From: Hypomesus transpacificus
Taxonomy: Eukaryota; Chordata; Actinopteri; Osmeriformes; Osmeridae
Assembly: GCF_021917145.1 (NCBI RefSeq)
Contig: NC_061065.1
Coordinates: forward strand, 5,235,337 to 5,299,336
Reading direction: 5' to 3'
DNA: 64,000 nucleotides
Below, one piece after another: positions 14,351-64,000 of the stretch. The notes beneath the pieces are model-generated. The model saw only the letters and a program-made list of their open reading frames with translations. It searched no databases and was not told the DNA's origin. Position 1 is the first letter of the stretch; each line of letters opens with the position of its first letter. A program made the translations under genes and the position numbers.

Positions 14351-14954
<604 letters not shown>

Positions 14955-15767: not shown

Positions 15768-16172
<405 letters not shown>

Positions 16173-24111: not shown

Positions 24112-24441
24112 CTCTAGGGCGATGTTCAGTTGTTCTATCCTCCAAGTTTGGCTGTCTTTTCACGCAAAAATGATCCCGTGGTCCACTACCGTGGACATAT
24201 ACAAAATAAAAGAACATTTTCAAAAGTCTAAATTGTAAGATGTTTAAAGACTAAATAAACAGGAAATTACACCCCCCAAAAATAAATGTAATGGAAAACC
24301 CCACTTTTACTGGGCTCCCAGGGGGTTATGACCGATCGCTGTATGACTATTGCGATCCCTTTCATTACCTTTGGAAAATGGCTTTGAGAATGTTGGCTAC
24401 ACAAATAGTGTCAGCATACAGAAGGCCATGTTGGGAGATAG

Positions 24442-24888
<447 letters not shown>

Positions 24889-25596: not shown

Positions 25597-26073
<477 letters not shown>

Positions 26074-29326: not shown

Positions 29327-30383
29327 ATAACTTTCTTAAATTAAAGGAAGACAACACCGAAGTCCTACTATGTGGCCCCAAATCCAAAAGAGAGATGCTT
29401 ACTAAGAACCTAGGAGGTTTAACCCCCTGGCTTAAACCAGAGGTGACAAGTCTCGGTGTAGGCTAATCCTGGACTCAGATTTGAAGTTCAACTCTCACAT
29501 TAATAAAGTGACCAAGACTGCTTTCTTTCACCTGAGGAATATAGCAAAGGTATGACCATTCATAAACCAAAATGATGCAGAGAAGTTATTTCATGCTTTT
29601 ATATCCAGCCGGCTGGACTACTGTAACGCACTTTTCGCTGGTCTTCCCAAGAAAACCACTAAAAGACTACAGCTCATTAAAAATTCTGCAGCTAGATTAT
29701 TAACCAAAACTAAAAGGAGAGAACACATACACATACACTGGCTGACATACACTGGCTCCCTGTTACCTTCAGAATTGACTTTAAGGTCCTATTCCTCACA
29801 TACACAGCTCTTCACGGACAAGGACCTAGCTACATTGCTAACTCTCTGATAAACTACACTCCAGCTAGAACACTGCAATCATCAAATGCAGGCCTATTAG
29901 AGGTCACCGGAAGCAGTCATAAGAAGATTGGTGACGCCCCAAAACTATGGAACAAATTAGGGAGGCAAATACGCTAGACATTTTTAAAAGACAGCTTAAA
30001 ACCTACCTTTTTACCAGAGCATTTAACATTTTTTTTTCATCTCAGAAGGGTTTTACAACTTTTAGTAGTTATATTATTATTTTTATAGATTTGCTTTGTA
30101 TTCCCGCAAAGATTGTGTTCGACTTGCACTATTGCTTATATGTTACATTTGATCTATTTTGTTGAGTCATTGTATTTTGTTATTTTGTAGTTTTTATCAT
30201 TGTTATTATAATTTTACTTATTTATTTTTTAAATTGGGATACCACAAAGACTGTGCGAGAGTGCATGTTTTTTGTTATGTTTCACTTGTATTATTGTTTT
30301 TGTTGATTTTATGTTAAGCACCTTAAGCTGCAATTCCTGTATGAAATGTGCTATATAAATATATAAAAAAGTCTTACTTACTT
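29327..30383 (+). mobile_element. 5'-truncated LINE nested in DIRS copy A
   Basis: Coding remains of an L2-like RT C-terminus (SRLDYCNALFAGLPKKTTKR, LDIFKRQLKTYLFTRAF) followed by an AT-rich untranslated tail ending in TTACTTACTT. DIRS copy B has continuous sequence here, giving the empty site; copy C carries the same insertion at 57894-58950. Stops and shifts in the frame show it is dead. Confidence 0.82.
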
Positions 30384-32473: not shown

Positions 32474-32860
32474 TCAGGCAGGAGAAATGTACTTGATACA
32501 TTATTCACACGGTACAACACCTCATTGTAACATTTGATTTGGCATTTTGGTTCTGCTTGCATCGGCTCCCTGCCGCATCCAACGGAGACACCGTCTCGAC
32601 CTCCGAGCAGAGAGCAGCGACGCATTCCCCCTACAACAGGAAACACAGAACCTAGGGTGGAGGCCGGGGAGGCGGAGGCAGCAGATTAACAGGAAGCAAC
32701 CTGTGTCGCACTACAAAGCAGAGTGCAGCGATATCCCGATTAAATAGCCCGCCCTGCTAAGAGGGTGTGCCCCTACTGCGTGATGATGCGCTGCCAGTGA
32801 CGCGCTGCTAATGAGGCGCGATGTCTCGCGTCCCCCTGGATGAACCACCTCCGTTTGTTT
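32474..32860. repeat. Unassigned insertion in DIRS copy A
   Basis: About 390 bp absent from the matching place in DIRS copies B and C. No family recognised; no clear terminal repeats. Confidence 0.5.
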
Positions 32861-33750
32861 GTCGAGGTACAATAGAATCCGTATTGGGCGTGTATTCGTA
32901 CTTCATCCCATCGAAGGCAAAACGCTGAAATATCCTGTGCTTCAGTTTGATAGGCACATGGAAATACGCGTCCATCAGATCTATGCTGATCCCAAAGTCG
33001 TTCCGCTGTACACAAGTCAGCAAACGCTTTAATGTCAGCATGCGAAAGGGCCGTCTGGCCACACTCTCGTTGAGCACCCGCCAACGGACGGCAAGCTTGT
33101 TTCCTCCTGCTTTGCGAGGCACCTGCGGGAACAGAGAAGGGAGCAGCGTTAGCCTTCTTCTGCAGGGGCGTATGCCCTAGCAGGTGCTTCCTCTCGTCCC
33201 TTCCAGAAGGTTGCGCCTCATTTGCCGCCTCAAGGTGGTCCTCAAACTCCAAACTCTCCTCGTCGGAGAGCAGGGCCGAGACCACGTCTTCAAGGGGCTC
33301 CTCCACCTGGAAGAAATCAAACCGCAGCCGAGGCAGGTGCATGATTCACAGCCAGGGGAGTCCACCAACCCGTCCCTGGCATGCTGGGGTCCCTAGCACA
33401 CAAAACAAAATTTGTGGCAGTCCCCCTCAGCTTCCAGGTAACGACACCTGCACTTGGCTCTTTAAAGGGCCTTGCGCAGGAGTGGCGAAATGGAAAAGCT
33501 TATAGTTCTTTTCTTCTAGATATTCTTCAATCTTCAAGCCACTGAATTCAAGCAACCCGTGCTGATTTTTTGGGGAAGATGAGGGACGGCTGTCACCCCT
33601 TTATATAGGGCACCTGTGTGAGGTACAGGTGTGTATACATTTTGATCTTCAGTCATTGGCTGCACTAGGCAGCGGGTAAACCATTAGGAGCAGAGCTCCC
33701 CTATGGGGCAGAGCTCCACGAAATAGAACCACTGTGCTCTCTGTCTCCAG

Positions 33751-34745: not shown

Positions 34746-37343
34746 CAACATTTTAATCTTCTTGTTGACACCTAACATTAGGTTGTGATCAATGTGAACT
34801 TCACTGTTAATCTGAAAACACTCAGCAGAACTACTAAAAGCAGGCAGGCAACTAAAAGATAAACGCAGTGGCAAAGCAGGGGTACAACCAAGGCCCGCTA
34901 CGGGCTGGCGAACGCTGCCTCTTTCTGGTCATCATGAAGAAACGCAGGGAGCGCTGGCGGGGGACGCATATACACATATGCCTCAGACAAATTGATCATT
35001 GTTTTCTAATGTGCAGTTCTGAACAGAGAACTGCACATGAGATGAAATTACATTGTTGTTATGTTACAATGACAATTGTATGACAATCTGTTTTCTACGA
35101 TGCAAACAAGCTAGTGTTACATTTGTCTGGGTTTGCCGGTCTGTCAGGCCCAGTTAGATGGAAGGACGGACGGAGAAGGAGATGGACAAGTCTTACCAAA
35201 ATAGTGGTGCTCTCTGTGTGAAACTGTGCTGCTCTGACAGTGAAAGTTGAACGGTTCCCAAACACCATATTAAATCTACTGACATTAAAACAGAATTTGA
35301 TTTGTCTCTGGAGGAGGGGATCTCACTGAATGCTCCTCCCAAGGTTTTCCTTGTCTTCCTTGAGGTTTAGGTTGTTATAGGTGCTGATATGTGGGTATAT
35401 GTGAAGCTCTCTGTGACAACACTTGTAAAAAGGACTATACCAATTCAATTTGATTTGATGACTTGATTAAATCTCTAAAAATCTTTCTCCATGTTCCATA
35501 GCATATCCCTCATGCTAATTATTTCACAAAATGGCCAAAACATGTACGTGGGTCTGCAGTTTATTAAATGAAGCAGACTTTATAGATGTGAATAAATGTC
35601 AAGTGGGGAGGTCTGGCTGTGAAAGTCAGCAGCCATCTAGATCTCCCAGCAGCTCCTGGATGATTCCCTCCAGCCGGCTGAAGAGCACAGCTGATAGGAC
35701 GTCAGCTTGGCTGAAGGTGGACTCGTCCAGATCCAGGATGCTGTCTAGCAACTTCATTAGCTGGACCTGAGATCAGTGAGACACAACACAACGTTATTCC
35801 ACACATAGATCCAGAACATAAAAGTAAGCAAAACCAGCTTGACCATGAAACAGGAAATACATTTGTGTAACTGAAGGACTTCCTGGAACATTTTGGCACA
35901 TGGCTGCCATCCAGTTGGAGGGGTTACAATTGGCTCCAGCACCTGGAAAAGGTGATCAAGGAATCCCTGTTCCTGCTTCTTGGGGTCAGAAGTTTGTCAT
36001 TAACAAAGTTACAATGAATTATTCGATATCTTAAAACTCTAAAGTCTTCAAAGCTTTTCTCTTTTCTCAGTACAACTTACGTTTTGTGGAGGCAAGGCAG
36101 CATTGTTTTTTATCACTCCCAGAATGATGAAATCATACACAATATCCAGGAAGTTGGTGTGATGGATCTGCAGAAACCAAACACAGGCAAAACTGACATG
36201 GGCTGCTCAAAGCAATGCCCAACAATATCTGAGCAGAATGTACCTTGACATTTACTTGAACATGATAAATCAATATGTAAAATGCACAATTATTTCAATT
36301 TGTTATCATTACTCACGTTGACAGAGGCCAGCTCCCTCTCTATCCCAGCCCTGTGGGCGGGATCTTCAATGTAGCTCACCAGGCGGTTGAACGATGTGCA
36401 GAGGGAACTAATATCCTATATCAGAGAGAAGAATATAATCATTACGTTCATCAATGGACCATCAAAGTCTCTGTTGTTCTAAGATGCCTGGTCCTTACCG
36501 CCTGGTTGAGCTGGACCAGCCCTGAAAGAATCATCTTTCCTGCAACTAGCAGGAAGTTTTTTGTGCTGTCCTGGGTCAGGAGTGACTGTAACACAAGGTC
36601 ATCTCAAGTTGAAAATCTAGATTTCTGGATATTGACATGTTCCTGCATTCTGATATACTTGAGATCGATAAACTCACATGAAATGCCTCACGAAGGGCCA
36701 CAATTTTATTGCTCAAGTCTTGGACCTGTTTCTCCTGAAGATAGGTCCTGTAACCACCACAACAAACATCTCAGTTCATGTTGTGCTTTCAAAATGGCTT
36801 GAATCTGTTATGAACATATTGTGCAATAAAGTGTGAGTGTATTTGGACTAACATGAGGCGGGAAACTTCTCTGTTCCCAGGGGGCGGAGCCTGATGTGAC
36901 TCCTCCCCCTCAGCGTGTTCATATCCAGAGTCTTCCTTCGGAACCCTCTCCTCCTCCTCAGGCTCCTGCTGCACAATCGTGGACAAGATAAATACTCCTC
37001 TCCCATCTTCAAACTTCCAGAAGGTCAAATCCCCTCAACCATATCAACATACAGTAGGATGTCTCAAAACGTTATCAAGATAAAGGACTTAGGATTCTAC
37101 AGTCAGATGGGGAAGAAGCTGATTGTACCTGGGGCTGGAAGGAATGCTCTGGGGGGGAAGGAGGGCCGTGGGTGTGGCTGTTGGCACGCCCAGCATGACT
37201 GTGGCTGTGGTGATGTTTGGGGCCGGGGGCATGGCCTGGTCTGGAGGTGTTCCTGGGGCCACTGTTGGCTCCCTGGGGGTACTGGTGGCCGTGGGCATGG
37301 TTGTGTCTGTGTCCAGAGCCGCTGGCATGGCCTGGTCCAGAGG
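34746..37343. repeat. Segmental duplicate of 5818-9412
   Basis: From about 34886 the match to copy A is almost perfect (constant offset 27931 over the gene part); 34746-34885 matches 5818-5990 only moderately. It lacks the TA-flanked transposon. The duplicate stops inside exon 11 of the mitoguardin-like gene and, after about 17 bases of filler, joins the copy of 13267 onward. Confidence 0.93.
35626..37343 (-). pseudogene. 5'-truncated copy of the mitoguardin-like gene
   Basis: Holds exons 12-18 (36968-36853, 36747-36678, 36585-36499, 36415-36317, 36167-36081, 35978-35871, 35766-35626) and the last part of exon 11 (to 37343). The first ten exons, including the membrane anchor and all repeats, are missing. 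The donor after the second-last exon has changed from GT to TT (35869-35870), so splicing would also fail. Coding sequence is otherwise nearly unchanged, so the copy is young. A pseudogene by structure. Confidence 0.85.
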
Positions 37344-38444: not shown

Positions 38445-38915
<471 letters not shown>

Positions 38916-39861: not shown

Positions 39862-40266
<405 letters not shown>

Positions 40267-40511
40267 TTACAGTGAATGGCATCGGTCATAGCCCAGATAT
40301 TATACTTCACGGTAACTGGCAGTCATTGGTCACAAGGCCGGTTCAGTCTCAATCCAATCAGAGGTAGCGGCAAAACTGAAGGCGGAGTCTTTTCCTTAAT
40401 CTCAAACGGCGAGGGGGGTATTTGGCCCCCATCCTTCTCTTTGTTCCTTTCCGTCGCTCCTCATTTTGGGCACCATTCGCTAAAATGGTTGACATCAAAT
40501 TTCTTCAGAAC

Positions 40512-43500
40512 GATAGTTAATGGAGGTAACTCCAGTTCTATGAGTGGAGCGGAGCCCCATAGGGGAGCTCTGCTCCTAATGGTTTACCCGCTGCCTAGTG
40601 CAGCCAATGACTGAAGATCAAAATGTATCCGCACCTATCACTCACACAGGTGCCCTATATAAGGGGGTGACAGCCGTCACTCATCCTCCCAAAAGTATTA
40701 AATACAGCCGGGTTGAATAAGTCGAGCTGGGCCTGCAGCCCTATGGGGCTCCGCTCCACTCATAGAACTGGAGTTACCTCCATTAACTATCGTTCTATTT
40801 CGTGGAGCTCCGCCCCATAGGGGAGCTCTGCTCCTAATGGTTTAGGCGGAGCGAGCGAGGCCAGATATACCCCCAGTGAGACTAGATCTAAAAAGACTCA
40901 TCATCTCACAAGACACCGAGGACAGACCTGCTGATGTAAATAATACATAGGGTCTGTCCTCCCGGTCAGACCCCTACTGTGACACAGAGAGCCGTCCAGG
41001 GTAAGAAAAACAGGGGAAGTTTACTTAGAAACTCATGTTGTTTCTCTCGCCTGCACAACAGCATAGCTGGAGGGGCAACAGAATACATACAGTAAAGACA
41101 TCTCAACTGAGAACGTCTGCCTGTCCCACATTTGGCGATATAACCAATGAACAACTCGCATCTAGGGCCCACAAGAACCTAGCAAGTTGTCATCTCGCTA
41201 CACCTGATCCACCAGCCATGCTGAGGACAGAATGCGCAAAAGATGAGGAGGAAACGTCCAACAGATAATATCGTACAAATGGTGAAGGCGACGACCAAGA
41301 CGCCGCCTCACAAATCTCCTCCACTCCCACACCCCTGAGGATGGCGGCTGAGGCTGCCACTCCTCGGGTGGAATGAGCCCGAATGCCAGGTGGCACGGGA
41401 CATCTCATAGACTCGTATGCGAGACCAATAGCCTCGCAGAGCCAGTGAGAAAGTCTCTGTTTGGAGAGTGGCAAGCCAGCTCTCGATCCACCGTAGCAGA
41501 TCAGTAACTGGGGAGAAGATCTGATACTTGCTGTGCATTCCAGATAGCGCAACAGAGCGCGCACTGGGCACAGCCCATGTAAGCGTCTTTCCTCCTCTCC
41601 GCTGTGCGGAGGCGGGAAAAAGGCTCTCAGTTCGCAGCTCTGTGCCCTGAACGCTCGGCTAATCACCTTGGGGATAAAGGCCGGATTAGGACGCAACACT
41701 GCTCTCGTTCGATCACCCGAGATGATCAAACAATCCGCTCGCGTTGACAGAGCGCACAAGTCGCTCACTCGCTTAGCCGTAGTCAAAGCGAGGAGCAGAC
41801 TGGTCTTGAGAGAAAGCAAACGTAATGACACGTTGTCTATGGGCTCGAAAGGTGGTCCGCACAGAGCGTCTAACACCAGAGATAAATCCCATATAGGTGT
41901 TGACGCTCTCGGAGGTGGCCTGAGCCTACACACCCCAGCCAGAAAACGCTTGACCAGCGGGTGGCTGAACAGTGTCGTCTTTGCGAACCCTTCGTGACAT
42001 GCCGAAATGGCAGCCGCGTAAACACGCACAGTGCTCGCGGCTAAGCCCTCGTCAAACAACGATTGTAAGAAACACAAGAACATTTCGACCGGACATGAGA
42101 CCGGGTCAAGGTTCCGTTTTCCACACCATTGTGCAAAGGCTTGCCAGCGCGACGCGTACCCTCTAGCAGTAGATTGTGCGCGCGCACCCAGAATGGTCTG
42201 AATGACAGCATCAGACAGACCCCTGCGCTCTAAGAGCTCCCTCTCAGTAGCCAGGCCATAAGTGGGCCTCCGATCACTGGAGGGCTCTTCACCAGGCCTC
42301 CGGCCTGAGAGAGCGCATCCATCTGGTGAGGTATGGGCCAAGGCCCGCCTACCATCATCCCCATCAGTTCCGGGAACCACGGGGCTCCGGGGCGATCGGG
42401 GGCTATCAGAATGACCGACAGCCCCTCCGACCTCACCCGAGCCAGCAAGGAAAGGATGGAGGCCAGAGGTGGAAATGCGTACAGTAGACCTCTCGGCCAG
42501 GAACGGTGCGCGAACGCATCGACTCCCAGCGGAGGTCTGTCCTGTGTGCGCAGCGAGAACCATAGAGGACACTGTGTGTTGGCTCGTGACGCAAACAGAT
42601 CCACCTGTGCTCGGCCGAAGCGTGCCCAGATCAGAGAAACGATGGACGGTTTCAACCTCCACTCGTCCTCTCTCGGGCCGCCCCTTGACATCAGGTCCGC
42701 TCCTTCGTTGAGCAGACCTTGAATGTGCTGAGCTCTCAGGGAGCGCAGGTGCGTGAAAGCCCAAGTCCACACTTCCTCCGCTAAGCGATGAAGAGATGGA
42801 GAGCGCACCCCTCCCTGTCTGTTGATGTAAGCCACCGTCGCCCTGTTGTCGGATCTGACGAGAACGTCTTGATCCTTCAACACCAGCGCGAAATGGCACA
42901 GAGTCAGTCGAACCGCTTCGAGCTCCAGGAGGTTGATGTGACGCGTCTCTGACGGTTCCCATCTTCCTCCTATTGAGCCCGCCTGACATACTCCACCCCA
43001 CCCGGTCAAGGACGCGTCCGTAAAGACCGGGTAGAGAGATGTCACTCTGCCCATGTCGACTCCGCGCGTCAAGACACGCGGGTCTCTCCAATGGCTCAGA
43101 TCGGCTTTGACTGATCTCGGTATCACTAGCAGTCTGCGGCGGTGTCGCACCGGATCCAACCGCAGCTGAGCGAACCATCTCTGCAGCTTGCGCATGTATA
43201 ACAGGCCCAATGGCACTACTACATGAGCCGCCGCCATCAACCCCAACAGGGACATCACCGACAGTGCGGTGACTGTGCGTGAGACCCGGAACGCACGGAG
43301 AGCTATCGAAATAGCCTCTCTCCGTGGTGCCGACAGTCTGGCTCTCATCCCAACAGTGTCCAAATGGATACCTAGGTAGGTAAACTGCTGAGCGGGCCAT
43401 GGAGCGCTCTTCTCCCAGTTGACCGCGAACCCCAACTGGCTGAGCTGAGTCACCAGTGAGATCGCGTCCTGGATAGCTCTGTCCGGAGACTGAGCCAGAA

Positions 43501-46120
43501 CTAACAGGTCGTCGAGGTACGCCAGAATGCGTATACCCCTCCGCCGTAACGGTTCTAGAGCTGCTTCCACGCACTTGGAGAAAGTTCGAGGAGCCAGCGC
43601 GTACCCAAACGGCAGGCGCGTGTACTCGTACTTCTTCCCCTCGAAGGCAAAACGCAGAAATCTCCTGTGCTTCAGTTTGATAGGCACATGGAAATACGCG
43701 TCCTTCAGATCTATGCTGATCCCAAAGTCGTTCCGCTGCACACAAGTCAGCAAACGCTTTATCGTCAGCATGCGAAAGGGCCGTTTGGCCACACTCTCGT
43801 TGAGCACCCTCAGATCTAAAATCGGTCTCATCTGCCCGTTTTTCTTGGGAACCAAAAAATAAGGGGAGTAGAGACCCGAGTTCTCTTGATCTCTGGGGAC
43901 AGGGATCACCGTCCCTTTGGTCAGCAAGCTTGCTATCTCTTTCCGAAGTGCGAGCGCTTTCAGCGGACAGGACAAGCGTGTCTCCCTCACTCCTCTGAAA
44001 GGAGGAGGAGTGCGCATGAACTGGATGGTATAACCCTCTCTCAGTATCCTGTCTAGCCAGCCTGACAGTGAGCATGACTCTCGCCACTCTGCATAATGCA
44101 GAGAGAGCGGGCGTGCGTTCAGCTGCGGAGCCGCAGACAGGAAACGGCCGTACTCTCGTCTGACCCCAGCCGCCGCTGTGCACCGACTCGGCGACACAGC
44201 CCAAGGCGGGGTCAACTCGAAAGGGCTGGAGCAGCGTCTCAAGGCCAAAAGAGGCCTGAGTGCTGTCCTCATTATGATCCTCGAGAAGACTCACAGCGCG
44301 ACCAGAGATCTGCGCGTAACGTTGCAGCGGTGGCTCATGTAACGTGATAACAGAGTCACACGCTGTGTTATGGCGCATGGGGGCGGCTAGCGGTCTGGCC
44401 ACACGCTTGCTAGCTGGGCCAGACTCCGCTATGTACGTGCCCGATGGTTTGGCATCGCTAGTAGTTGGAAACTCGCGAACCGAAACCAACTCATTACTCC
44501 GCTCGACAACAGTACGAGTGCTCAGCTCAGTAACTGTCGAGATTGCAAGAGGCACTGGATGGAACACTTGTCTTTCTGGGAAAGAGTAAAGCGGAGGTCC
44601 AAGCCTCTTTATTTCATCCCTACAAACAGGGGTGGGAACCGAAGCCTCGGTCCCCGCCGCCAGTCACGCCCTCCTCTTTTTCCCACCTCCGCCACCACGC
44701 CAGCTGGGATTAGGCGGACGGCTGTAACCCGCTCTCTCGGGGGGAACAGCCAAAGGTGGAACAGGTGTCGCGGGAGGAGCAGCCTGCGTCGCAGTGGCCG
44801 CTCGTGCCACCGGACGGCGAGCTCGTTTCCTTCTACCTTGTGTGGCACCTGCAGGGATAGAGAAGGGAGCAGCGTTAGCCTTTTTCTGCAGGGGCATATG
44901 CCCCAGCAGGTGCTTCCTCTCCTCCTCCAGGCGCGAGAAGCGTTCGGACGCTGCAGCCACAGCCGGTCCGAACAGGCCCTCGCCCGTCACCGGGGCATTC
45001 AGCAGGGCAGACTTGTCCGCCTCTCTCATGGCCGTCAGGGACAGCCAGAGGTGGTGATGAACAACAAGGCTGTTGCCCATTGCTCTGCCTGCACAAATGG
45101 CCGCCCCCTGATTCAGGTGGAGCGCCGCGGACGCCATCCTGGCCACCCACGACGTCTCCTCCGGCGACAGGCCCTCAGGTTTCTCCGTCGAGAGCTTTGA
45201 GACCGCCGCCGTTAAAAGGGCGGCGTTGCCGGAGGCTGCCGCTGCCTGCGCACCCCAGACATAAGCTTTGTCTGCCAGAGAGGCAGTAAGCTTGTCACGG
45301 GAGGACGGCAGGTTTGCCTTCTTAGTCGTCATCCACGCGCTGGCCCCTGGAACCAGGTATGCCGCGAGGGACGGTTCCAAGGGCGGGGGGCCGGTCTTAA
45401 CCGCCTCTCCCAGCCCGGTCACCCTCGTGAAAGGGAGCAGCGCTTTGACTGGCGCGTTAGCCATCAAAGGCGCTTCCCAGGAGCCCTGCACGTAATCAGC
45501 CAGCTTTGGCATAGTGGGGCACAGGGGTTTTGACGTCTTCATGCGTTTTGCATGGGGGCCAACCTCCCACGGGTCCTCTTCCTCCACAGGAGGAGAGGCC
45601 GGCAGCGGAACGCCCATGATCTCCGCTGCTTTCTTAATGATTGCAGGGAAATCCGCCCTTCGAGACAGTGCAGAAGTGACAGTAGGGCCGGGAGCCGGCT
45701 CCTCGTCATCCTCCGAAATTGAACTCAGCGCCCGCCCTTCCACATCAGGAAAGGACAGGGGGGCTGTGCGCAACACGTTCTTCAGGATAACCTCCACAGG
45801 AGGGTCCCTACTAGACGGTTGCGCCTCATTTGCCGCCTCGAGGTGGTCCTCAAACTCCGAACTCTCCTCGTCGGAGATCAGGGCCGAGACCACATCTTCA
45901 AGGGGCTCTTCCACCTGGAAAAAATCAAAGCGCAGCCGCCTCTCCGAAACGGAGAGCTTTTTTGGGAGGATGAGTGACGGCTGTCACCCCCTTATATAGG
46001 GCACCTGTGTGAGTGATAGGTGCGGATACATTTTGATCTTCAGTCATTGGCTGCACTAGGCAGCGGGTAAACCATTAGGAGCAGAGCTCCCCTATGGGGC
46101 GGAGCTCCACGAAATAGAAC
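40512..46120 (-). mobile_element. DIRS-type tyrosine-recombinase retroelement, copy B (fossil, nearly whole)
   Basis: DIRS family, genes on the minus strand. Inverted terminal repeats occupy about 40535-40690 and 45955-46110. An internal complementary region at about 40740-40860 reads as the complement of the left end joined directly to the complement of the right end. Parts from 5' to 3': gag-like region (about 44664-45914), reverse transcriptase/RNase H (about 42230-44272), and tyrosine recombinase (about 41190-42230) in an overlapping frame, an overlap known for DIRS elements. It looks almost whole, with about one visible break. No target duplication; AAC abuts both borders. Close identity to copy C suggests it is young. 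Confidence 0.9.
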
Positions 46121-47711
46121 CTGTAGGCTAGTCTTTTCCACAGATCACATCCTTAGGATGTAAGCTTTCAGAAAAAACATGGTTTAGGTGGTTGAATCAG
46201 TTTCCCTAAATAGCAAAGCCCCAAAAAGTATCAGCCATATACTCCATTTACCAATACCAAATTTATAATGCATAGGCAGCATACTAATATGGAGAGAAGG
46301 ACGTGTCTCTTGTCTCATTAGATAACATCCTGAGGGTATGGTTTTAATGGTTTGACAGTTTTGACTTCATGTTACAGACTAACATGTAGCAAGGAAATTC
46401 TGCATATTTCCAAAATCACAAGTTGAGCAACCCTGTTTAATTTGGAAGACAATTCTAGCAACTAGCATGTTAGCTAAGGTTAACTCCAGATTATCTCACG
46501 GTTGTTATCGCAATAAAAAAAACACCAGCAATTTATTTTGTCATCATCATCACTGGGGGACAGCTTGAGATGTTGGCTCAGGACCGAGATGCTTGGAGAA
46601 CTCTTGTTTGCGGCCTAAGCCCCAGAAGGGGTAGTAGGCGATGATTAATTTATTTTTTAGCTACTAAAAAAAAAACATCCTTGTCATCTCTTTCTGCCTG
46701 AAACAGACGCCTAGGTCTGAACACGGCCAAAAACATTACATATTTTAGACCCAGATTAAGAAATCAACAAATGCTGTTCCACTTGTAATGGCTAAATAAT
46801 AACTACTCACTAATCGAACGGTCGAGGTTAGTAAGTTGTTTATTGTATAGCATTTTTAGCTCTTTTCATTATGTAAATGAAAATAAATGGTAGGCTAATT
46901 GTAGCTAGCTCTCAAATCTTCTCACAGTGTGTTCAGGTGTTGCCTAGCACACCCAATTACTTTTGATGGAAAGCGGACAACGCGGTTCTGCTAAAATGGC
47001 TTTAATTCCAACACAAATTGTTGGCAACGACAGTACGAGCGCTCCCCACCCCTGCACTAATATTTTGATCGCAAATGTGTTTTGTTTTTTTTAAGTGAGG
47101 GGGACGTGACCTAGCCTGGCTCTGCCCTCCTACGTACTTCCGCTCAATTTGGATTTTGCTTCTGTACTAGGTCTGGGAGCTAGGCTCTGATGTCGGTTTC
47201 CAGAAACACATTTTTTGTAGGTCCAATCAGCGAACAGAGGGAGTGGCTGAGAACGATGACGTTAATGTCGTGCACTTGTTTGAGTAGTTCAATAATGGCG
47301 GCGGAGAAAGATGCGAGCAAACTATTCTACGGTTGTGGCAACGCTGCCGAATATAGGTTAAAGCCGGAGCAAGAACATTCCTTGCTGAGTTTTGTTGGTG
47401 GCCATGATGTTGTGGCCCTCCTCCCCACGGGGTTCGGGAAACGTTTGATTTTCCAGCTATGGCAGCTAGCTCCGTTACAGTAGTGGTGAAGGAGTTGGCT
47501 AAGTCGAACGCTTGCGATTAGTTAAGGCAAATCTGAGTGGCTCTGGGCGGATCCAATAGTTTTAAACTTCAACAGAGGACCCGCCTTCAAGGAAGTTAAC
47601 GTTTGTCAATCGAGAGATCCCAGACCCTCTGTACAAATGAAATGTAAGAGGGTCTGGTTAGGACCAAGCCAGACGTGACCCCCCCAAGGTACATTATGGC
47701 GACGCCCATGC
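46121..47711. mobile_element. Left-truncated copy of the helicase-bearing DNA transposon relic
   Basis: Duplicate of 16991-18581 (offset 29130). Its left end and the flanking spacer (16419-16990 in copy A) are missing where DIRS copy B lies; the right terminal CGACGCCCATGC is kept at 47700-47711. Confidence 0.65.
47295..47483 (+). pseudogene. RecQ/SF2 helicase-like fragment (copy)
   Basis: Duplicate of 18165-18353, with the same GKR in place of the Walker A GKS/T and the same early stop. Confidence 0.6.
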
Positions 47712-48148: not shown

Positions 48149-48760
48149 TTACTTCTTCTTGGGTGTAGCCTTCTTGGCCTTGGGCTTGGCCGCCTTTGGC
48201 TTGGCTGCCTTGACTGTCTTCTTCGGGCTCTTGGCTGCTACCTTCTTGGGCGTCACAGGCTTCTTGGCCTTTTTGGGGCTCTTGGTAGTCTTCTTTGCTG
48301 CCACGGGCTTCTTTACCTTCTTGGGAGACTTCTTGGCAGGTGCCGTTTTTTTCGCCACAGCCTTCTTGGGCTTCTTGGCCGCAGCGGGCTTCTTAGCGAC
48401 AACCTTCTTGGGCTTCGGAGTGACGGCCTTCTTGACAGGCTTCTTTGCCTTGGTCTCGGCGGCCTTGTTGATCTTAAAAGACCCTGAGGCGCCGGTTCCC
48501 TTGGTCTGGACCAAGGTCCCCTTCGTAACCAGACTCCTGACGGCGATCTTGACGCGGGAGTTGTTCTTCTCTACATCGTAGCCCCCCGCTGAAAGAGCCT
48601 TCTTGAGCGCTGCCAGGGACACGCCGCTGCGTTCCTTGGAGGCGGACACAGCCGTAACAATCAGCTCACTGACGCTGGGTCCCGCTTTCTTGGGCTTAGC
48701 TGCTGCCTTCTTCTTGGGTGCCTTGGCCGGAGCGGGAGCTGCAGGGGCGACTTCTGCCAT
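48149..48760 (-). CDS. Linker histone H1 (set B)
   Basis: Same 203-aa H1 as set A. The H1 box and TATA-like element are kept about 165 and 90 bp upstream. It lies about 2 kb from the DIRS copy B border, so its proximal regulation is untouched. Confidence 0.97.
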
Positions 48761-52300: not shown

Positions 52301-52747
<447 letters not shown>

Positions 52748-52799: not shown

Positions 52800-53453
52800 A
52801 CCCACACCCTCTGTAAAGACTCTTCCATATTCAATTCAGGGTTGAATACGATACATTTTTTCCCTCGGTTTTAATCAATACATGTCGTCTGTGGTTAATG
52901 GTGGGTCAGGTTGAAATTACGTTATAAATCAGGAATGAGTTATCAAGATGTGAGCTAGTAGAGTTCCCGAGCACAATACATTGACTAGGCCACCGAGCAC
53001 AGTGTGTACAGCGCTAGGATTGTGGTCGGACACGTTTAGTGAGGCTTGATTTCGTTTGTAAGGATGGCATTTGCGACATTGAGCAGCAGTTAAACGAGGC
53101 TCCTATTCCGAGTGAAGTGGCAAATGATAGTAATTGGAACAATGCAGTTTTTACAGTAGAATTTAGTGTAGCTAGTAAATGTGTATAATTTAACTACACG
53201 TTCGACATATAAATACCCTATCTGACCTTTGAAAGGAAACACACGTTGGTTGAAACCGATCCGTAACAAAACATGAGACAGTGGCAAACGTTTGATGGTT
53301 AACAAAATGGATACTTTTGGGTGGCAAGCGCATGTCGTCCGCAAGGATGCACGCATGCGCTGGAGGGATGCCAACAAAATCCACCGGGAAAAGAGAAGTA
53401 GAGGAGGCAAATAATCAGGCGCACGCGCGTTTCACTGCGTCAACGCCTCGTAG

Positions 53454-53930
<477 letters not shown>

Positions 53931-53962
53931 ACGGGTGCTATATGACACCACTGTACCCCAAA

Positions 53963-53978
53963 GGCTCTTTTAAGAGCC
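53963..53978 (+). promoter_or_regulatory. Histone 3' stem-loop of H2B (set B, first copy)
   Basis: Perfect hairpin followed by ACCCA. Confidence 0.95.
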
Positions 53979-54125
53979 ACCCACACAACTTTAAAATGCC
54001 AATTTCCATTTGCGCCTTTCAAGGGTATGACAGACCAGAAGCAACTTGCTATGGTATCTGCGAACAGATATTAGTTTCCTAGCTCTTGGTCAGTACAAAT
54101 GCATTGCCAAATAATCTTTTCACCA

Positions 54126-55080
54126 TTACATTTACATTTATTCATTTAGCATTTGTCCAAAGCGACTTCCAAGAGAGAGCTTCACAAAGTGCATAGGTCA
54201 CTGATAATAACAACAAGATAGCCCCACAGCATTGCGGGTAGTCAAAAACAAGAAGTACATATTGTGAACAACCAAAAAATAGTGCTAAAGGGAAGAAACC
54301 ATAAGAGCATGTAGTTAAACAAGTTAAAATTACACAACATTAATCTCTAAGTGCAGGTGTACCTGTAGGAAAGCAATACAAATAGGATCAACTAAAAAAG
54401 AAGAATACAACAGTTTAAATCAGCTACCACTAACCAACAAGAGCAACAGTCTAAGCAAGAGTCATTGTGAACCTTGAGGAAACTAGCGTTGGATTCAGCA
54501 AACCATTCCTAAGTACCATTGTACTCCCGGAACAAGTGCGTCTTGAGCCTTCTCTTGAAGGTGGAGAGACAGTCCGTGTCTCTGATGGAGGTGGGGAGTT
54601 GATTCCACCACTGGGGTGCCAGGCAGGAGAAGAGCTTGTGCTGGGACCGGGCGGTCTTGAGAGGTGGGACCACCAGGCGGTTGTCTGAAGAAGACCGTAG
54701 GTGGCGGGTGGGGGTGTAAGGCTGCAGGAGAGACTTGATGTAGTCGGGCGCAGTTCCGTTCACTGCTCGGAAGGTCAGTACCAGGGTCTTGAATCTGATG
54801 CGGGCCGTTATGGGTAGCCAGTGGAGGGAGATGAGGAGCGGGGTAACGTGGGAGCGTCTGGGTAGATTGTAGACCAGACGGGCCGCTGCGTTCTGAATCC
54901 TCTGAAGAGGGCGGGTTGCGCATGATGGGAGACCGGCGAGCAGCGAGTTACAGTAGTCCAACTTGGAGAGGACAAGTGCTTGGACAAGCAGCTGGGTGGA
55001 GTGCTCAGACAGGTATCTCCTGATCTTCCGGATGTTGTAGAGGGTGAATCTACACGACCGGGAGACCGCAGCAATGTGGG
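54126..55080 (-). mobile_element. L2-clade LINE fragment
   Basis: Same insertion as 26268-28402 but without the nested endonuclease LINE. It is cut at its right side by the tandem-duplication junction and lacks 6 bases (GACGCT) in its tail relative to the next copy. Confidence 0.87.
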
Positions 55081-55108
55081 CGCGTTTCACTGCGTCAACG
55101 CCTCGTAG

Positions 55109-55585
<477 letters not shown>

Positions 55586-55617
55586 ACGGGTGCTATATGA
55601 CACCACTGTACCCCAAA

Positions 55618-55633
55618 GGCTCTTTTAAGAGCC
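55618..55633 (+). promoter_or_regulatory. Histone 3' stem-loop of the third H2B
   Basis: Perfect hairpin followed by ACCCA. Confidence 0.95.
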
Positions 55634-55786
55634 ACCCACACAACTTTAAAATGCCAATTTCCATTTGCGCCTTTCAAGGGTATGACAGACCAGAAGCAAC
55701 TTGCTATGGTATCTGCGAACAGATATTAGTTTCCTAGCTCTTGGTCAGTACAAATGCATTGCCAAATAATCTTTTCACCATTACAT

Positions 55787-56969
55787 TTACATTTATTCAT
55801 TTAGCAGACGCTTTTGTCCAAAGCGACTTCCAAGAGAGAGCTTCACAAAGTGCATAGGTCACTGATAATAACAACAAGATAGCCCCACAGCATTGCGGGT
55901 AGTCAAAAACAAGAAGTACATATTGTGAACAACCAAAAAATAGTGCTAAAGGGAAGAAACCATAAGAGCATGTAGTTAAACAAGTTAAAATTACACAACA
56001 TTAATCTCTAAGTGCAGGTGTACCTGTAGGAAAGCAATACAAATAGGATCAACTAAAAAAGAAGAATACAACAGTTTAAATCAGCTACCACTAACCAACA
56101 AGAGCAACAGTCTAAGCAAGAGTCATTGTGAACCTTGAGGAAACTAGCGTTGGATTCAGCAAACCATTCCTAAGTACCATTGTACTCCCGGAACAAGTGC
56201 GTCTTGAGCCTTCTCTTGAAGGTGGAGAGACAGTCCATGTCTCTGATGGAGGTGGGGAGTTGATTCCACCACTGGGGTGCCAGGCAGGAGAAGAGCTTGT
56301 GCTGGGACCGGGCGGTCTTGAGAGGTGGGACCACCAGGCGGTTGTCTGAAGAAGACCGTAGGTGGCGGGTGGGGGTGTAAGGCTGCAGGAGAGACTTGAT
56401 GTAGTCGGGCGCAGTTCCGTTCACTGCTCGGAAGGTCAGTACCAGGGTCTTGAATCTGATGCGGGCCGTTATGGGTAGCCAGTGGAGGGAGATGAGGAGC
56501 GGGGTAACGTGGGAGCGTCTGGGTAGATTGTAGACCAGACGGGCCGCTGCGTTCTGAATCCTCTGAAGAGGGCGGGTTGCGCATGATGGGAGACCGGCGA
56601 GCAGCGAGTTGCAGTAGTCCAACTTGGAGAGGACAAGTGCTTGGACAAGCAGCTGGGTGGAGTGCTCAGACAGGTATCTCCTGATCTTCCGGATGTTGTA
56701 GAGGGTGAATCTACACGACCGGGAGACCGCAGCAATGTGGGCCGTGAGGGAGAGCTCGTCGTCCATGGTCACCCCAAGGTTCCTGGCAGAGGATGAGGGG
56801 GTCACCGTCGCAGATCCCAGGGTGATTGAGAAGTCATGGGAGATGGAGGGTTTGGCCGGGATGATGAGAAGTTCTGTTTTGGCAAGGTTCAGCTGGAGAT
56901 GGTGCTCAGTCATCCAGGCGGAGATGTCTGCGAGGCAGGCCTCAATCCTGGCTGAGATCCCCGGATCGG
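55787..56969 (-). mobile_element. L2-clade LINE, 5'-truncated (copy)
   Basis: Uninterrupted version of the L2 at 26268-28402, with the complete tail (TTTAGCAGACGCTTTTG). The RT C-terminal frame is 56170-56913. It is the empty site for the nested endonuclease LINE. Confidence 0.88.
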
Positions 56970-57089
56970 TCGGAGGGAATTACATTGTGGTCTGTTCTGT
57001 GGTCCATTACATTATTTCTGATTTGGAATCTAAATCCCACTTATGGAAGCAGCCCATCAGCACTGCAGGAGCATCCCGTTGAAAACAAC

Positions 57090-60000
57090 GACAGTTAATG
57101 GAGGTAACTCCAATTCTGAGTGGAGCGGAGCCCCATAAGAGAGCTTCGCTCCTTATGGTTTACCCGCTGCCTAGTGCATCTAATGAGTGAAGATCAAAAT
57201 GAATACACACCTGTCCCTCACACAGGTGCCCTATATGAGGTGGGTGGGGGGACAGCCGTCACTCATCTTCCCAAAAGTATTAAATACAGCCGGGTTGAAT
57301 AAGTCGAGCTGGGCCTGCAGCCCTATGGGGCTCCGCTCCACTCATAGAACTGGAGTTACCTCCATTAACTATCGTTCTATTTCGTGGTGCACCACGAGCG
57401 AGGCCAGATATACCCCCAGTGAGACTAGATCTAAAAGACACAATCTCACATGGCACCGAGGACAGACCTGCTGATGTAAATAATACATAGGGTCTGTCCT
57501 CCCGGTCAGGCCGCTACTGTGACACAGAGAGCTGTCCAGGGTGAAAACAGGAGAGTTCACTTAAAACTCATGTTGTTCCTCTCGCCTGCACAACAGCTAA
57601 GCTGAAGGGGCAACAGAACACATACGGTATAAACATCTCAACTGAGCATATCTGACTGTCCCACACTTGGCGATATAATCAACAAACAACTCGCATTTAG
57701 GGCCCACAAGAAGCCGGTGAGTTTTCATCTCGCTACACCTGATCCACCAGCCATGCTGAGGACAGAATGCGCAAAAGATGAGGAGGAAACGTCCAACAGA
57801 TAATATTGCACAAAAGGTGAAGGCGACGACCAAGACGCTGCTTCACAAATCTCCTCCACTCCTACACCCCTGAGGATGGCGGCTGAGGCGGCTATAACTT
57901 TCTTAAATTAAAGGAAGACAACACCGAAGTCCTACTATGTGGCCCCAAATCCAAAAGAGAGATGCTTACTAAGAACCTAGGAGGTTTAACCCCCTGGCTT
58001 AAACCAGAGGTGACAAGTCTCGGTGTAGGCTAATCCTGGACTCAGATTTGAAGTTCAACTCTCACATTAATAAAGTGACCAAGACTGCTTTCTTTCACCT
58101 GAGGAATATAGCAAAGGTATGACCATTCATAAACCAAAATGATGCAGAGAAGTTATTTCATGCTTTTATATCCAGCCGGCTGGACTACTGTAACGCACTT
58201 TTCGCTGGTCTTCCCAAGAAAACCACTAAAAGACTACAGCTCATTAAAAATTCTGCAGCTAGATTATTAACCAAAACTAAAAGGAGAGAACACATACACA
58301 TACACTGGCTGACATACACTGGCTCCCTGTTACCTTCAGAATTGACTTTAAGGTCCTATTCCTCACATACACAGCTCTTCACGGACAAGGACCTAGCTAC
58401 ATTGCTAACTCTCTGATAAACTACACTCCAGCTAGAACACTGCAATCATCAAATGCAGGCCTATTAGAGGTCACCGGAAGCAGTCATAAGAAGATTGGTG
58501 ACGCCCCAAAACTATGGAACAAATTAGGGAGGCAAATACGCTAGACATTTTTAAAAGACAGCTTAAAACCTACCTTTTTACCAGAGCATTTAACATTTTT
58601 TTTTCATCTCAGAAGGGTTTTACAACTTTTAGTAGTTATATTATTATTTTTATAGATTTGCTTTGTATTCCCGCAAAGATTGTGTTCGACTTGCACTATT
58701 GCTTATATGTTACATTTGATCTATTTTGTTGAGTCATTGTATTTTGTTATTTTGTAGTTTTTATCATTGTTATTATAATTTTACTTATTTATTTTTTAAA
58801 TTGGGATACCACAAAGACTGTGCGAGAGTGCATGTTTTTTGTTATGTTTCACTTGTATTATTGTTTTTGTTGATTTTATGTTAAGCACCTTAAGCTGCAA
58901 TTCCTGTATGAAATGTGCTATATAAATATATAAAAAAGTCTTACTTACTTACTCCTCGGGTGGAATGAGCCCGAATACCAGGTGGCACGGGGCATCTTAT
59001 AGACTTGTACGTGAGCCCAATAGCCTCGCAGAGCCAGTGAGAAAGTCTCTGTTTTGTGAGTGGTAAGACAGCCCTGGATCCGCCGTAGTAGATCAGTGAC
59101 TGGGGAGAAGATCTGATGTTTGCTTTGCACTCCAGATTGCGCGAGAGAGAGCGCACCGGGCACAGCCTGTGTAAGCATCTCAAAAAGCTCTCAGTTCGCA
59201 GCTCTCTGCCTTGAACGCTCGGCTATTCACCTTGGGGATAAAAGCCGGATTAGGGCGCAACACTGCTCTTGTTTGATCACCTGAGATGATCAAAAAAGCG
59301 CACAAGTCACTCGCTTAGCCGTAGTCAAAGACTCGTTTTGAGAGAAAGCAGACGTAATGACACATTGTCTATGGGCTCGAAAGGTGGCCAACACAGAGCG
59401 TCTAACACCAGAGATACATCCCATGTAGGTGCTGACGCTCTCGGAGGTGGCCTGAGCCTACACACCGCAGCCAGAAAACGCTTGACCAGCAGGTGGCTGA
59501 ACAGTGTCGTTTTGGCGAACCCCTTGTGACACGCCGAAATGGCAGCTGCGTAAACACGCACAGTGCTCGCGGCTAAGCCCTCGTCAAACAAAAATTGTAA
59601 GAAACACAAGAACATTTCGACCGGACATTTCGACCGGGTCAAGGTTCCGTTTTCCACACCATTGTGCAAAGGCTTGCCAGCGCGACGCGTACCCTCTAGC
59701 AGTAGATTGTGCGCGCGCACCCAGAATGGTCTGAATGACAGCATCAGACAGACCCCTGCGCTCTAAGAGCTCCCTCTCAGTAGCCAGGCCATAAGTGGGC
59801 CTCCGATCACTGGAGGGCTCTTCACCAGGCCTCCGGCCTGAGAGAGCGCATCCATCTGGTGAGGTATGGGCCAAGGCCCGCCTACCAGCATCCCCATCAG
59901 TTCCGGGAACCACGGGGCTCCGGGGCGATCGGGGGCTATCAGAATGACCGACAGCCCCTCCGACCTCACCCGAGCCAGCAAGGGAAGGATGGAGGCCAGA

Positions 60001-63000
60001 GGTGGAAATGCGTACAGTAGACCTCTCGGCCAGGAACGGTGCGCGAACGCATCGACTCCCAGCGGAGGTCTGTCCTGTGTGCGCAGCGAGAACCATAGAG
60101 GACACTGTGTGTTGGCTCGTGACGCAAACAGATCCACCTGTGCTCGGCCGAAGCGAGCCCAGATCAGAGAAACGATGGACGGTTTCAACCTCCACTCGTC
60201 CTCTCTCGGGCCGCCCCTTGACATCAGGTCCGCTCCTTCGTTGAGCAGACCTTGAATGTGCTGAGCTCTCAGGGAGCGCAGGTGCGTGAAAGCCCAAGTC
60301 CACACTTCCTCCGCTAAGCGATGAAGAGATGGAGAGCGCACCCCTCCCTGTCTGTTGATGTAAGCCACCGTCGCCCTGTTGTCGGATCTGACGAGAACGT
60401 CTTGATCCTTCAACACCAGCGCGAAATGGCACAGAGTCAGCCGAACCGCTTCGAGCTCCAGGAGGTTGATGTGACGCGTCTCTGACGGTTCCCATCTTCC
60501 TCCTATTGAGCCCGCCTGACATACTCCACCCCACCCGGTCAAGGACGCGTCCGTAAAGACCGGGTAGAGAGATGTCACTCTGCCCATGTCGACTCCGCGC
60601 GTCAAGACACGCGGGTCTCTCCAATGGTTCAGATCGGCTTTGACTGATCTCGGTATCACTAGCAGTCTGCGGCGGTGTCGCACCGGATCCAACCGCAGCT
60701 GAGCGAACCATCTCTGCAGCTTGCGCATGTATAACAGGCCCAATGGCACTACTACATGAGCCGCCGCCATCAACCCCAACAGGGACATCACCGACAGTGC
60801 GGTGACTGTGCGTGAGACCCGGAACGCACGGAGAGCTATCGAAATAGCCTCTCTCCGTGGTGCCGACAGTCTGGCTCTCATCCCAACAGTGTCCAAATGG
60901 ATACCTAGGTAGGTAAACTGCTGAGCGGGCCATGGAGCGCTCTTCTCCCAGTTGACCGCGAACCCCAACTGGCTGAGCTGAGTCACCAGTGAGATCGCGT
61001 CCTGGATAGCTCTGTCCGGAGACTGAGCCAGAACTAACAGGTCGTCGAGGTACGCCAGAATGCGTATACCCCTCCGCCGTAACGGTTCTAGAGCTGCTTC
61101 CACGCACTTGGAGAAAGTTCGAGGAGCCAGCGCGTACCCAAACGGCAGGCGCGTGTACTCGTACTTCTTCCCCTCGAAGGCAAAACGCAGAAATCTCCTG
61201 TGCTTCAGTTTGATAGGCACATGGAAATACGCGTCCTTCAGATCTATGCTGATCCCAAAGTCGTTCCGCTGCACACAAGTCAGCAAACGCTTTATCGTCA
61301 GCATGCGAAAGGGCCGTTTGGCCACACTCTCGTTGAGCACCCTCAGATCTAAAATCGGTCTCATCTGCCCGTTTTTCTTGGGAACCAAAAAATAAGGGGA
61401 GTAGAGACCCGAGTTCTCTTGATCTCTGGGGACAGGGATCACCGTCCCTTTGGTCAGCAAGCTCGCTATCTCTTTCCGAAGTGCGAGCGCTTTCAGCGGA
61501 CAGGACAAGCGTGTCTCCCTCACTCCTCTGAAAGGAGGAGGAGTGCGCATGAACTGGATGGTATAACCCTCTCTCAGTATCCTGTCTAGCCAGCCTGACA
61601 GTGAGCATGACTCTCGCCACTCTGCATAATGCAGAGAGAGCGGGCGTGCGTTCAGCTGCGGAGCCGCAGACAGGAAACGGCCGTACTCTCGTCTGACCCC
61701 AGCCGCCGCTGTGCACCGACTCGGCGACACAGCCCAAGGCGGGGTCAACTCGAAAGGGCTGGAGCAGCGTCTCAAGGCCAAAAGAGGCCTGAGTGCTGTC
61801 CTCATTATGATCCTTGAGAAGACTCACAGCGTGACCAGAGGTCTGCGCGTAACGTTGCAGCGGTGGCTCATGTAACGTGATAACAGAGTCACACGCTGTG
61901 TTATGGCGCATGGGGGCGGCTAGCGGTCTGGCCACACGCTTGCTAGCTGGGCCAGACTCCGCTATGTACGTGCCCGATGGTTTGGCATCGCTAGTAGTTG
62001 GAAACTCACGAACCGAAACCAACTCATTACTCCGCTCGACAACAGTACGAGTGCTCAGCTCAGTAACTGTCGAGATTGCAAGAGGCACTGGATGGAACAC
62101 TTGTCTTTCTGGGAAAGAGTAAAGCGGAGGTCCAAGCCTCTTTATTTCATCCCTACAAACAGGGGTGGGAACCGAAGCCTCGGTCCCCGCCGCCAGTCAC
62201 GCCCTCCTCTTTTTCCCACCTCCGCCACCACGCCAGCTGGGATTAGGCGGACGGCTGTAACCCGCTCTCTCGGGGGGAACAGCCAAAGGTGGAACAGGTG
62301 TCGCGGGAGGAGCAGCCTGCGTCGCAGTGGCCGCTCGTGCCACCGGACGGCGAGCTCGTTTCCTTCTACCTTGTGTGGCACCTGCAGGGATAGAGAAGGG
62401 AGCAGCGTTAGCCTTTTTCTGCAGGGGCATATGCCCCAGCAGGTGCTTCCTCTCCTCCTCCAGGCGCGAGAAGCGTTCGGACGCTGCAGCCACAGCCGGT
62501 CCGAACAGGCCCTCGCCCGTCACCGGGGCATTCAGCAGGGCAGACTTGTCCGCCTCTCTCATGGCCGTCAGGGACAGCCAGAGGTGGCGATGAACAACAA
62601 GGCTGTTGCCCATTGCTCTGCCTGCACAAATGGCCGCCCCCTGATTCAGGTGGAGCGCCGCGGACGCCATCCTGGCCACCCACGACGTCTCCTCCGGCGA
62701 CAGGCCCTCAGGTTTCTCCGTCGAGAGCTTTGAGACCGCCGCCGTTAAAAGGGCGGCGTTGCGGAGGCTGCCGCTGCCTGCGCACCCCAGACATAAGCTT
62801 TGTCTGCCAGAGAGGCAGTAAGCTTGTCACGGGAGGCAGCAGGTTTGCCTTCTTAGTCGTCATCCACGCGCTGGCCCCTGGAACCAGGTATGCCGCGAGG
62901 GACGGTTCCAAGGGCGGGGGGCCGGTCTTAACCGCCTCTCCCAGCCCGGTCACCCTCGTGAAAGGGAGCAGCGCTTTGACTGGCGCGTTAGCCATCAAAG

Positions 63001-63884
63001 GCGCTTCCCAGGAGCCCTGCACGTAATCAGCCAGCTTTGGCATGGTGGGGCACAGGGGTTTTGAAGTCTTCATGCGTTTTGCATGGGGGCCAACCTCCCA
63101 CGGGTCCTCTTCCTCCACAGGAGGAGAGGCCGGCAGCGGAACGCCCATGATCTCCGCTGCTTTCTTAATGATTGCAGGGAAATCCGCCCTTCGAGACAGT
63201 GCAGAAGTGACAGTAGGGCCGGGAGCCGGCTCCTCGTCATCCTCCGAAATTGAACTCAGCGCCCGCCCTTCCACATTAGGAAAGGACAGGGGGGCTGTGC
63301 GCAACACGTTCTTCAGGATAACCTCCACAGGAGGGTCCCTACTAGACGGTTGCGCCTCATTTGCCGCCTCGAGGTGGTCCTCAAACTCCGAACTCTCCTC
63401 GTCGGAGATCAGGGCCGAGACCACATCTTCAAGGGGCTCTTCCACCTGGAAAAAATCAAAGCGCAGCCGCCTCTCCGAAACGGAGAGGCAAGCGCATGAT
63501 TCGCAGTCAGGGGAATCCACCAACCCGTCCCTGGCATGCCGGGGTCCCATGCACACGAAACAGAATTCGTGGCGGTCCCCCTCAGCCTCCAGGTAACGGC
63601 ACCTGCACTTGGCTCTTAAAAGAGCCTTGCGCGGGAGCGGTGGCATGGAAAAGCTCATTTTTCTTTTCTTCGCGATACTCTTCTATCTTCAAGCCAGTGA
63701 ATTCAAGCAACCCGTGCTGAATTTTTTGGGAGGATGAGTGACGGCTGTCACCCCCTTATATAGGGCACCTGTGTGAGTGATAGGTGCGGGTACATTTTGA
63801 TCTTCAGTCATTGGCTGCACTAGGCAGCGGGTAAACCATTAGGAGCAGAGCTCGCCTATGGGGCGGAGCTCCACGAAATAGAAC
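57090..63884 (-). mobile_element. DIRS-type tyrosine-recombinase retroelement, copy C (fossil, hybrid)
   Basis: DIRS family, genes on the minus strand. The left part (57090 to about 59630) is nearly identical to copy A, including the nested LINE; the right part (about 59640-63884) follows the copy-B lineage over the RT/RNase H (about 59763-61805) and gag-like regions. The 5' end is not identical to copy B, so the donor was a sister of B. Broken, with a few lesions; the recombinase part comes from the degraded lineage. AAC abuts both borders. The very high identity to A and B points to recent recombination. Confidence 0.87.
57894..58950 (+). mobile_element. 5'-truncated LINE nested in DIRS copy C
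   Basis: Same insertion, at the same place and with the same tail, as 29327-30383. Confidence 0.82.
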
Positions 63885-64000
63885 ATTACATATTTTAGAC
63901 CCAGATTAAGAAATCAACAAATGCTGTTCCACTTGTAATGGCTAAATAATAACTACTCACTAACCGAACGGTCGAGGTTAGTAAGTTGTTTATTGTATAG
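63885..64000. repeat. Start of a third histone-unit copy
   Basis: Matches 17605-17720 and 46735-46850, spacer sequence inside the helicase-bearing transposon relic. The unit continues beyond the window. Confidence 0.9.

Follow-up and report, generated by a model that had tools for sequence, protein, structure and literature searches.

Histone gene arrays are a textbook case of concerted evolution through the homology of their own repeats. A stretch of 64,000 bp from Hypomesus transpacificus (C6:5235337-5299336 of the 437-Mb assembly; hereafter the window, whose numbering is continued for positions beyond it) raises the question of how such an array is affected by retrotransposon copies residing in it. 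The window contains two histone units, each with the genes H3, H2A, H1, H4, and H2B (H2B is doubled in unit 2), and three DIRS1-like elements, copies A, B, and C, which have the same orientation and an AAC at each boundary. In an initial annotation, copy C was described as a hybrid of copy A and the copy B lineage, and exchange between DIRS copies was proposed as the engine of array growth. Here, copy C is confirmed as a hybrid of two DIRS copies in this assembly sequence, and its origin by chromosomal recombination between DIRS copies with exchange of flanks is well supported by the sequences on both sides of it.

Copy C combines two DIRS lineages

Copy A (A1; 28523-33726) is located at the end of unit 1 and carries internal deletions, copy B (40512-46117) is a young element, and copy C extends from 57090 to 63881; the coding strand of all three is the minus strand. 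Their comparison yielded 329 diagnostic sites, defined as columns in which A differs from B and C equals one of them. Up to position 59593, C agrees with A at 126 of 127 diagnostic sites, whereas from position 59632 onwards it agrees with B at 199 of 202, and the MaxChi value of 312, which places the breakpoint between these two positions, compares with a maximum of 21.2 among 2000 shuffles. The sharp switch of identity expected along a hybrid is thus evident, and it lies where it had been suspected (around 59620-59640), although the actual interval (59594-59631) is slightly wider.

The A-type part of C (57090-59593, minus strand) shows one difference in 2504 bp to A1 and no substitutions in 2504 bp to A3, a further A-type element downstream of the window. 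As initially stated for the left 2.5 kb of C, this part includes the nested LINE fragment of copy A: the fragment, assigned to the LINEs by eye from its translation, is located on the plus strand at 57889-58951, the same place that it occupies in A (29322-30384). The B-type part (59632-63881, minus strand) belongs to the young lineage, as had been claimed for the right 4.2 kb, but B itself does not fit as partner. C differs from B at 18 of 4017 positions in this part, a copy on contig C11 is no farther away (18 of 4250), and C contains 234 bp (63488-63721) that B lacks.

Most of a perfect 13-bp tandem repeat (59612-59637) falls into the switch interval, which it exceeds by 6 bases. The repeat is private to C, being found in one of 19 copies compared and in none of the 18 others, which argues against an assembly chimera. 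Four C-private events were counted in 3598 columns, two tri-allelic sites aside; this number alone is weak evidence for a mutation linked to the junction, and such a link became firmer only once the 19 copies were compared. The repeat looks like a repair scar.

The flanks of copy C point to an unseen partner

The left flank of C (55799-57089) is homologous to that of A, with three substitutions in 1280 bp that are all private to unit 2. The right flank (63882-64000) is identical at 119 of 119 positions to 17602-17720, in agreement with the earlier observation that the sequence after C returns to histone spacer; this spacer belongs to unit 3 and continues past the window. It differs from the right flank of A, which consists of the sequence from 33730 onwards in A1 and A3 and is not found in C, and it starts 614 bp away from the right-flank site of B (17602 versus 16988). 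DIRS1-like elements are described in passages of PMC3266345 as inserting at one 3-bp site without target duplication. Two relatives in the assembly were compared with this behavior: C6:12172902, located in an H2A gene, is a one-site insertion with a 3-bp overlap of its flanks in paralogues, and C11:4226453, located in an H3 gene, is consistent with a one-site insertion. Since the flanks of C come from two sites, C is a rearrangement junction joined to two places rather than a simple insertion.

The flank at 17602, the 234 bp that B lacks, and the equal closeness of the C11 copy together indicate that the partner was not B. We infer an unseen third insertion, termed D, of the B lineage, which would have resided at AAC 17602 between H2A and H1 and from which the right part of C would originate. 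This AAC site is empty in unit 1 (17602-17604) and likewise in unit 2 (46732-46734), and the assembly yielded no other DIRS element connected with the 17605 flank among the best 40 of 437 and the best 40 of 508 candidates scored.

The junction leaves unit 3 without H3 and H2A

Unit 3 begins at C and comprises H1 (65302-65907), H4 (69562-69870), and H2B (70728-71099); it ends with A3 (73552-78755), which has the right flank proper to A. H3 and H2A were absent from unit 3 in tblastn searches (E 1e-10) of the 144 kb examined, which contained two H3, two H2A, three H1, three H4, and four H2B genes in total. At the C junction, the H2B end of unit 2 meets unit 3 on its H1 side, with H3 and H2A skipped; the exchange thus broke a set instead of adding one. 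The proposed crossover between two DIRS copies is therefore retained as far as the recombination is concerned, but not the addition of a set each time.

Copy C quite probably arose by non-allelic recombination of D with A2, the A-type element that closes unit 2, a deletion being the most economical version. A2 and D, the latter in another unit, would have paired in direct orientation and exchanged within the short common stretch at 59594-59631, toward the left, recombinase end of the elements, and repair with slippage or template switching would have left the local 13-bp duplication. The H2B end of unit 2 would thereby have become connected to the next unit on its H1 side, leaving that unit without H3 and H2A. 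Such a deletion, or contraction, between A2 and a downstream D could have proceeded by crossover or single-strand annealing; the alternative would be a duplication from a D-bearing homologue. The existence of D, the route of repair, and the direction of change are our inferences from this arrangement.

Because the 17602 site is empty in units 1 and 2, sister-chromatid exchange would have shortened the array, and growth by this route, which needs D in unit 1 or 2, would depend on a homologue bearing D. The role of DIRS exchange as the engine of array growth is thus not borne out. The same applies to the suggestion that copy number is driven by DIRS elements instead of the histone repeats. The left edge of the recent full-set duplication of unit 1 into unit 2 (34974-35080, the start of unit 2) is outside any DIRS element, and its breakpoint near 35080/7160 is marked by an increase of identity from about 80-98% to about 99.7% within spacer free of DIRS. 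Homology among the histone repeats themselves has therefore probably contributed as well.

Alternative origins of copy C

Several observations weigh against a recombination of A2 with D. A-type and B-type elements differ by about 8% (143/1859), and the 37 identical bases common to A and B at the switch are little for ordinary crossing-over. Neither D nor the reciprocal hybrid was found in the assembly among the best-scored candidates. Furthermore, the direction of change is not fixed, with units 1, 2, and 3 being nearly equidistant (11, 11, and 17 substitutions in about 5.2 kb of shared spacer), and the array ends in a gap of 100 N (about C6:5326422-5326521) 27 kb past the window, with two unit starts before the gap. 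Possible, if unlikely, is a growth of the array by unequal exchange with a homologue bearing D in its unit 2, which would have duplicated the H1-H4-H2B part and added about 10.9 kb and three genes. The order of unit 2, C, the three genes H1, H4, and H2B, and A3 is also expected from such a duplication, and the lack of substitutions between A3 and the left part of C agrees with it. This scenario requires, however, that D was present on a different haplotype, since the site is empty in both upstream units. Moreover, the end of unit 3 (from H2B to A3) resembles unit 1 more closely than unit 2, and it has neither the roughly 950-bp LINE deletion nor the H2B tandem duplication of unit 2, unless those came later. 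The repetitive nature of the array and the gap downstream would also be compatible with an artificial join of reads, but an assembly chimera is improbable in view of the mere 37 bp of identity at the switch, the tandem repeat that none of the 18 other copies shares, and the 18 substitutions that separate the right part of C from B as well as from the closest C11 copy.

The exchange originally envisaged, with copy B of the same unit and with the gain of a set, draws on the location of B upstream of C in unit 2 and on the common lineage. It would require a precise AAC-to-AAC deletion of the flank and a later deletion in B, and is very improbable; as direct donor, B was rejected because of the right flank 614 bp apart, the 234-bp segment, and a divergence no smaller than that of the C11 copy. 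The sharp internal switch could be explained if an A-type element had undergone gene conversion in its right half, but conversion would have kept the flank in place, and the sequence from 33730 onwards that follows A1 and A3 does not follow C. The right flank was thus taken to rule out this highly improbable process. That a hybrid was formed in reverse transcription and inserted as such might be considered since five other copies have a common mosaic on the gag side, so that template switching may occur in the family. C, however, has the genomic left flank of A and its nested LINE, and none of 12 other copies in a tree of the left half groups with A and C. The internal complementary region (ICR), which is intact in B, is broken in A and in C, and C is therefore unlikely to have been made by retrotransposition. 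Flank, LINE, and broken ICR led to the rejection of a reverse-transcription hybrid, whose probability we regard as minimal. A small chance is left to a one-ended integration, in which a young DIRS cDNA recombined through homology with the A-type element on the left, while the tyrosine recombinase joined its right end to AAC 17602 and the intervening DNA was lost; copy B, with AAC sites 573 bp apart, would represent a related two-site event. The odd right flanks of B and C, which both start exactly at AAC, and the failure to detect an intact D among the best-scored candidates would fit this course of events, but no precedent for it was found, and the two relatives in H2A and H3 show ordinary one-site insertion.

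Structure of the DIRS elements

A reverse transcriptase domain (PF00078, E 2.5e-27) was detected at 42230-44272 on the minus strand. The overlapping open reading frame of 1157 amino acids had no Pfam match; its C-terminal part has a motif that, judged by eye, may be tyrosine recombinase (YR)-like. B has inverted terminal repeats (ITRs), its left end being 96.3% identical to the inverted right end over 161 bp, and its ICR matches the two ends at 56 of 56 and 53 of 53 positions, with the AAC shared. Among the relatives compared, AAC lies directly at 11 of the 14 outer left ends listed and at 17 of the 18 outer right ends listed, tandem copies being counted among the latter. A search of viral_contigs with the DIRS end gave no match.

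Association of the DIRS family with histone genes

The family was defined as 24 left-end loci with at least 75% identity to B among 40 scored of 69 candidates, and 14 of these, B included, were regarded as young (at least 97% identity to the left end of B). The histone map used to determine proximity retained 22 strong H2A rows of 33 and 17 strong H3 rows of 31; the dropped rows are on other contigs or megabases away, as checked for the 12 loci located beyond 1 kb. An H2A or H3 locus is present within 1 kb of 11 of the 14 young copies and of 12 of the 24 loci overall. Such 1-kb neighborhoods make up 0.018% of the genome, which corresponds to a binomial probability of 3e-39, a value to be read with the caveats that the copies occur in few clusters, that thresholds were set after seeing the data, and that independence is not assured. 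A1, C, and A3 are among the loci beyond 1 kb (4.7 to 33 kb). The three young copies not within this distance are C9:18523258, on a contig without H2A or H3; C11:3039223, 21 kb from H2A/H3, although an H2B-like gene is 1.05 kb away; and C11:4246147, with H2A at 6.8 kb and H1 at 0.9 kb. One of the 11 copies near these genes (C11:1916236, in the region C11:1911000-1922900) sits inside an older DIRS fragment beside H2A, both of its flanks being 82-89% identical to the family. Viewed from the genes, 11 of 22 H2A entries have a DIRS element within 1 kb, with one interrupted gene counted as two entries. On contigs C6, C11, and C90, most young copies are found within 1 kb of H2A or H3.

In some cases the elements are located inside coding sequence. 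One copy interrupts H3 at codon 54 and another H2A near amino acid 24, while a third ends inside H2A near amino acids 115-117 and has only one flank in the gene. Together with the insertions in spacers, these cases reveal no fixed position, AAC being the only common feature noticed. A second H3 gene seems to be interrupted at C90:198880-217151, where the parts for amino acids 56-136 and 1-59 are 17.9 kb apart. In 13 of 15 cases (p 0.007), the element and the histone gene closest to it have the same coding strand, a count that includes A, B, and the inferred D and omits the palindromic copy, the tandem, and the C9 and C10 copies, which have no histone gene in the flanks examined. As a control, more distant reverse transcriptase relatives outside the 24 loci were analyzed, and 1 of 18 (from 65 scored of 694 candidates) is located within 1 kb of a listed H2A or H3 locus, namely C11:1922220, the old fragment mentioned above as the host of C11:1916236, at 542 bp from H2A; these relatives have 28-73% identity (one with a piece of 87%), and their greater age is a confounder of the comparison. 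Five copies (C11:4239818, C11:4246147, C6:12182512, C90:137458, and C10:133851) are 68-87% identical to the yardstick copy in a large part of the gag side and 92-100% in the rest, and perhaps constitute a second subfamily, possibly derived by template switching.

This distribution looks like a preference of the DIRS family for histone genes, in which preference at insertion and better survival in multicopy loci are indistinguishable here. Among the papers listed in literature searches, none describes histone-directed DIRS elements as judged by titles and the beginnings of abstracts, a weak negative. Raw material for exchange exists in the array because the family is concentrated in histone loci. 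With slightly more doubt than confidence, we propose that replication-dependent histone genes are preferred integration sites of a young DIRS1-like family, including sites within H3 and H2A coding sequence and mostly in the orientation of the nearest histone gene, and that recombination between copies of this family leads to the deletion, inversion, and re-joining of histone sets.

Further DIRS-associated rearrangements and other features of the array

The flanks of B derive from AAC 16415 on the left and AAC 16988 on the right, two sites 573 bp apart (40509-46120 versus 16415-16990), and the 573-bp spacer between them is absent at B. B may thus also be a product of recombination or of a two-site event, or the 573 bp may be an insertion in unit 1. 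The copy at C6:12197918 forms the center of a histone block duplicated in inverted orientation (C6:12193660-12208000), with arms of at least 4.4 kb and 99.8% identity, and the left end of this DIRS element is replaced by the inverted right end. At C11:1904001-1914229, a tandem repeat of 3176 bp has a DIRS end joined to DIRS interior at AAC. These cases fit a role of DIRS elements as hubs at which histone loci are rearranged, with sequence being lost or inverted as well as gained. A deletion of H2A/H1 at C11:2860177, suggested by comparison with C11:2753146, is not put forward here because no more than a 32-bp match speaks for it.

The histone genes of units 1 and 2 are arranged alike, with H3 (14351-14761 and 38445-38855), H2A (15768-16154 and 39862-40248), and H1 (19019-19630 and 48149-48760) on the minus strand, and H4 (24577-24888 and 52436-52747) and H2B (25699-26073, and 53556-53930 and 55211-55585) on the plus strand; H1, H4, and H2B recur in unit 3 after C. 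The second H2B of unit 2 is carried by a 1.66-kb tandem duplication (53425-55085 and 55080-56745) with 6 bp common at the boundary, both copies of which lack about 950 bp of a LINE that unit 1 has. An insertion at 22855-24120 with an apparent 8-bp target duplication, presumably hAT-like (family by eye), occurs in unit 1 only. A further insertion of 983 bp (6073-7055) with inverted ends is found next to TA beside unit 1 and is absent at the start of unit 2.

Comparison with known systems

The elements described here resemble GaDIRS1 and GaDIRS2 of stickleback and TnDIRS1a of Tetraodon, which according to passages of PMC3266345 have an AAC circular junction, a size of 5.3-5.9 kb, ITRs, an ICR near the 3' end, and no target-site duplication. 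Unlike these elements, for which no histone preference is mentioned in those passages, their young copies are mostly located at histone genes. The change of copy number by misaligned exchange is shared with the Drosophila histone array, where unequal sister chromatid exchange is described (PMC12400953, in part). In the corresponding sections, no dispersed element is held responsible for that exchange, whereas in the present array the homology would have been provided by a mobile element whose place in the repeat was not equivalent, with an incomplete histone set as the consequence. Clustered DIRS copies have been suggested to cause ectopic recombination at the DIRS1 hot spots of Trematomus, where the available part of PMC5941688 draws this inference from the chromosomal distribution of copies; here, one junction can be followed base by base.

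Taken together, the DIRS elements seem to act on the array by reshuffling and not simply by enlargement. The proposed preferential integration and recombination, if true, would amount to a retrotransposon that targets histone genes, together with a route of array turnover via dispersed elements that breaks the 1:1 composition of sets. Ectopic recombination between element copies has reportedly also occurred with the Galileo transposon at Drosophila inversion breakpoints, but Galileo is a DNA transposon and the outcome there an inversion, in contrast to a retrotransposon in a histone array. If the family truly prefers histone genes, it would be a testable case of a retrotransposon with S-phase histone loci as its haven, and of a dosage imbalance brought about by it. 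Another transposable element, Dada, is also said to be directed to multicopy genes. The DIRS family would share the multicopy target with Dada and with tRNA-targeting retrotransposons, and would be distinguished from both by the use of protein-coding histone genes and of varied AAC sites without a fixed position. The logic of a safe haven, with a multicopy gene family as target, would be common to the DIRS family and the tRNA-targeting retrotransposons (PMC5911963).

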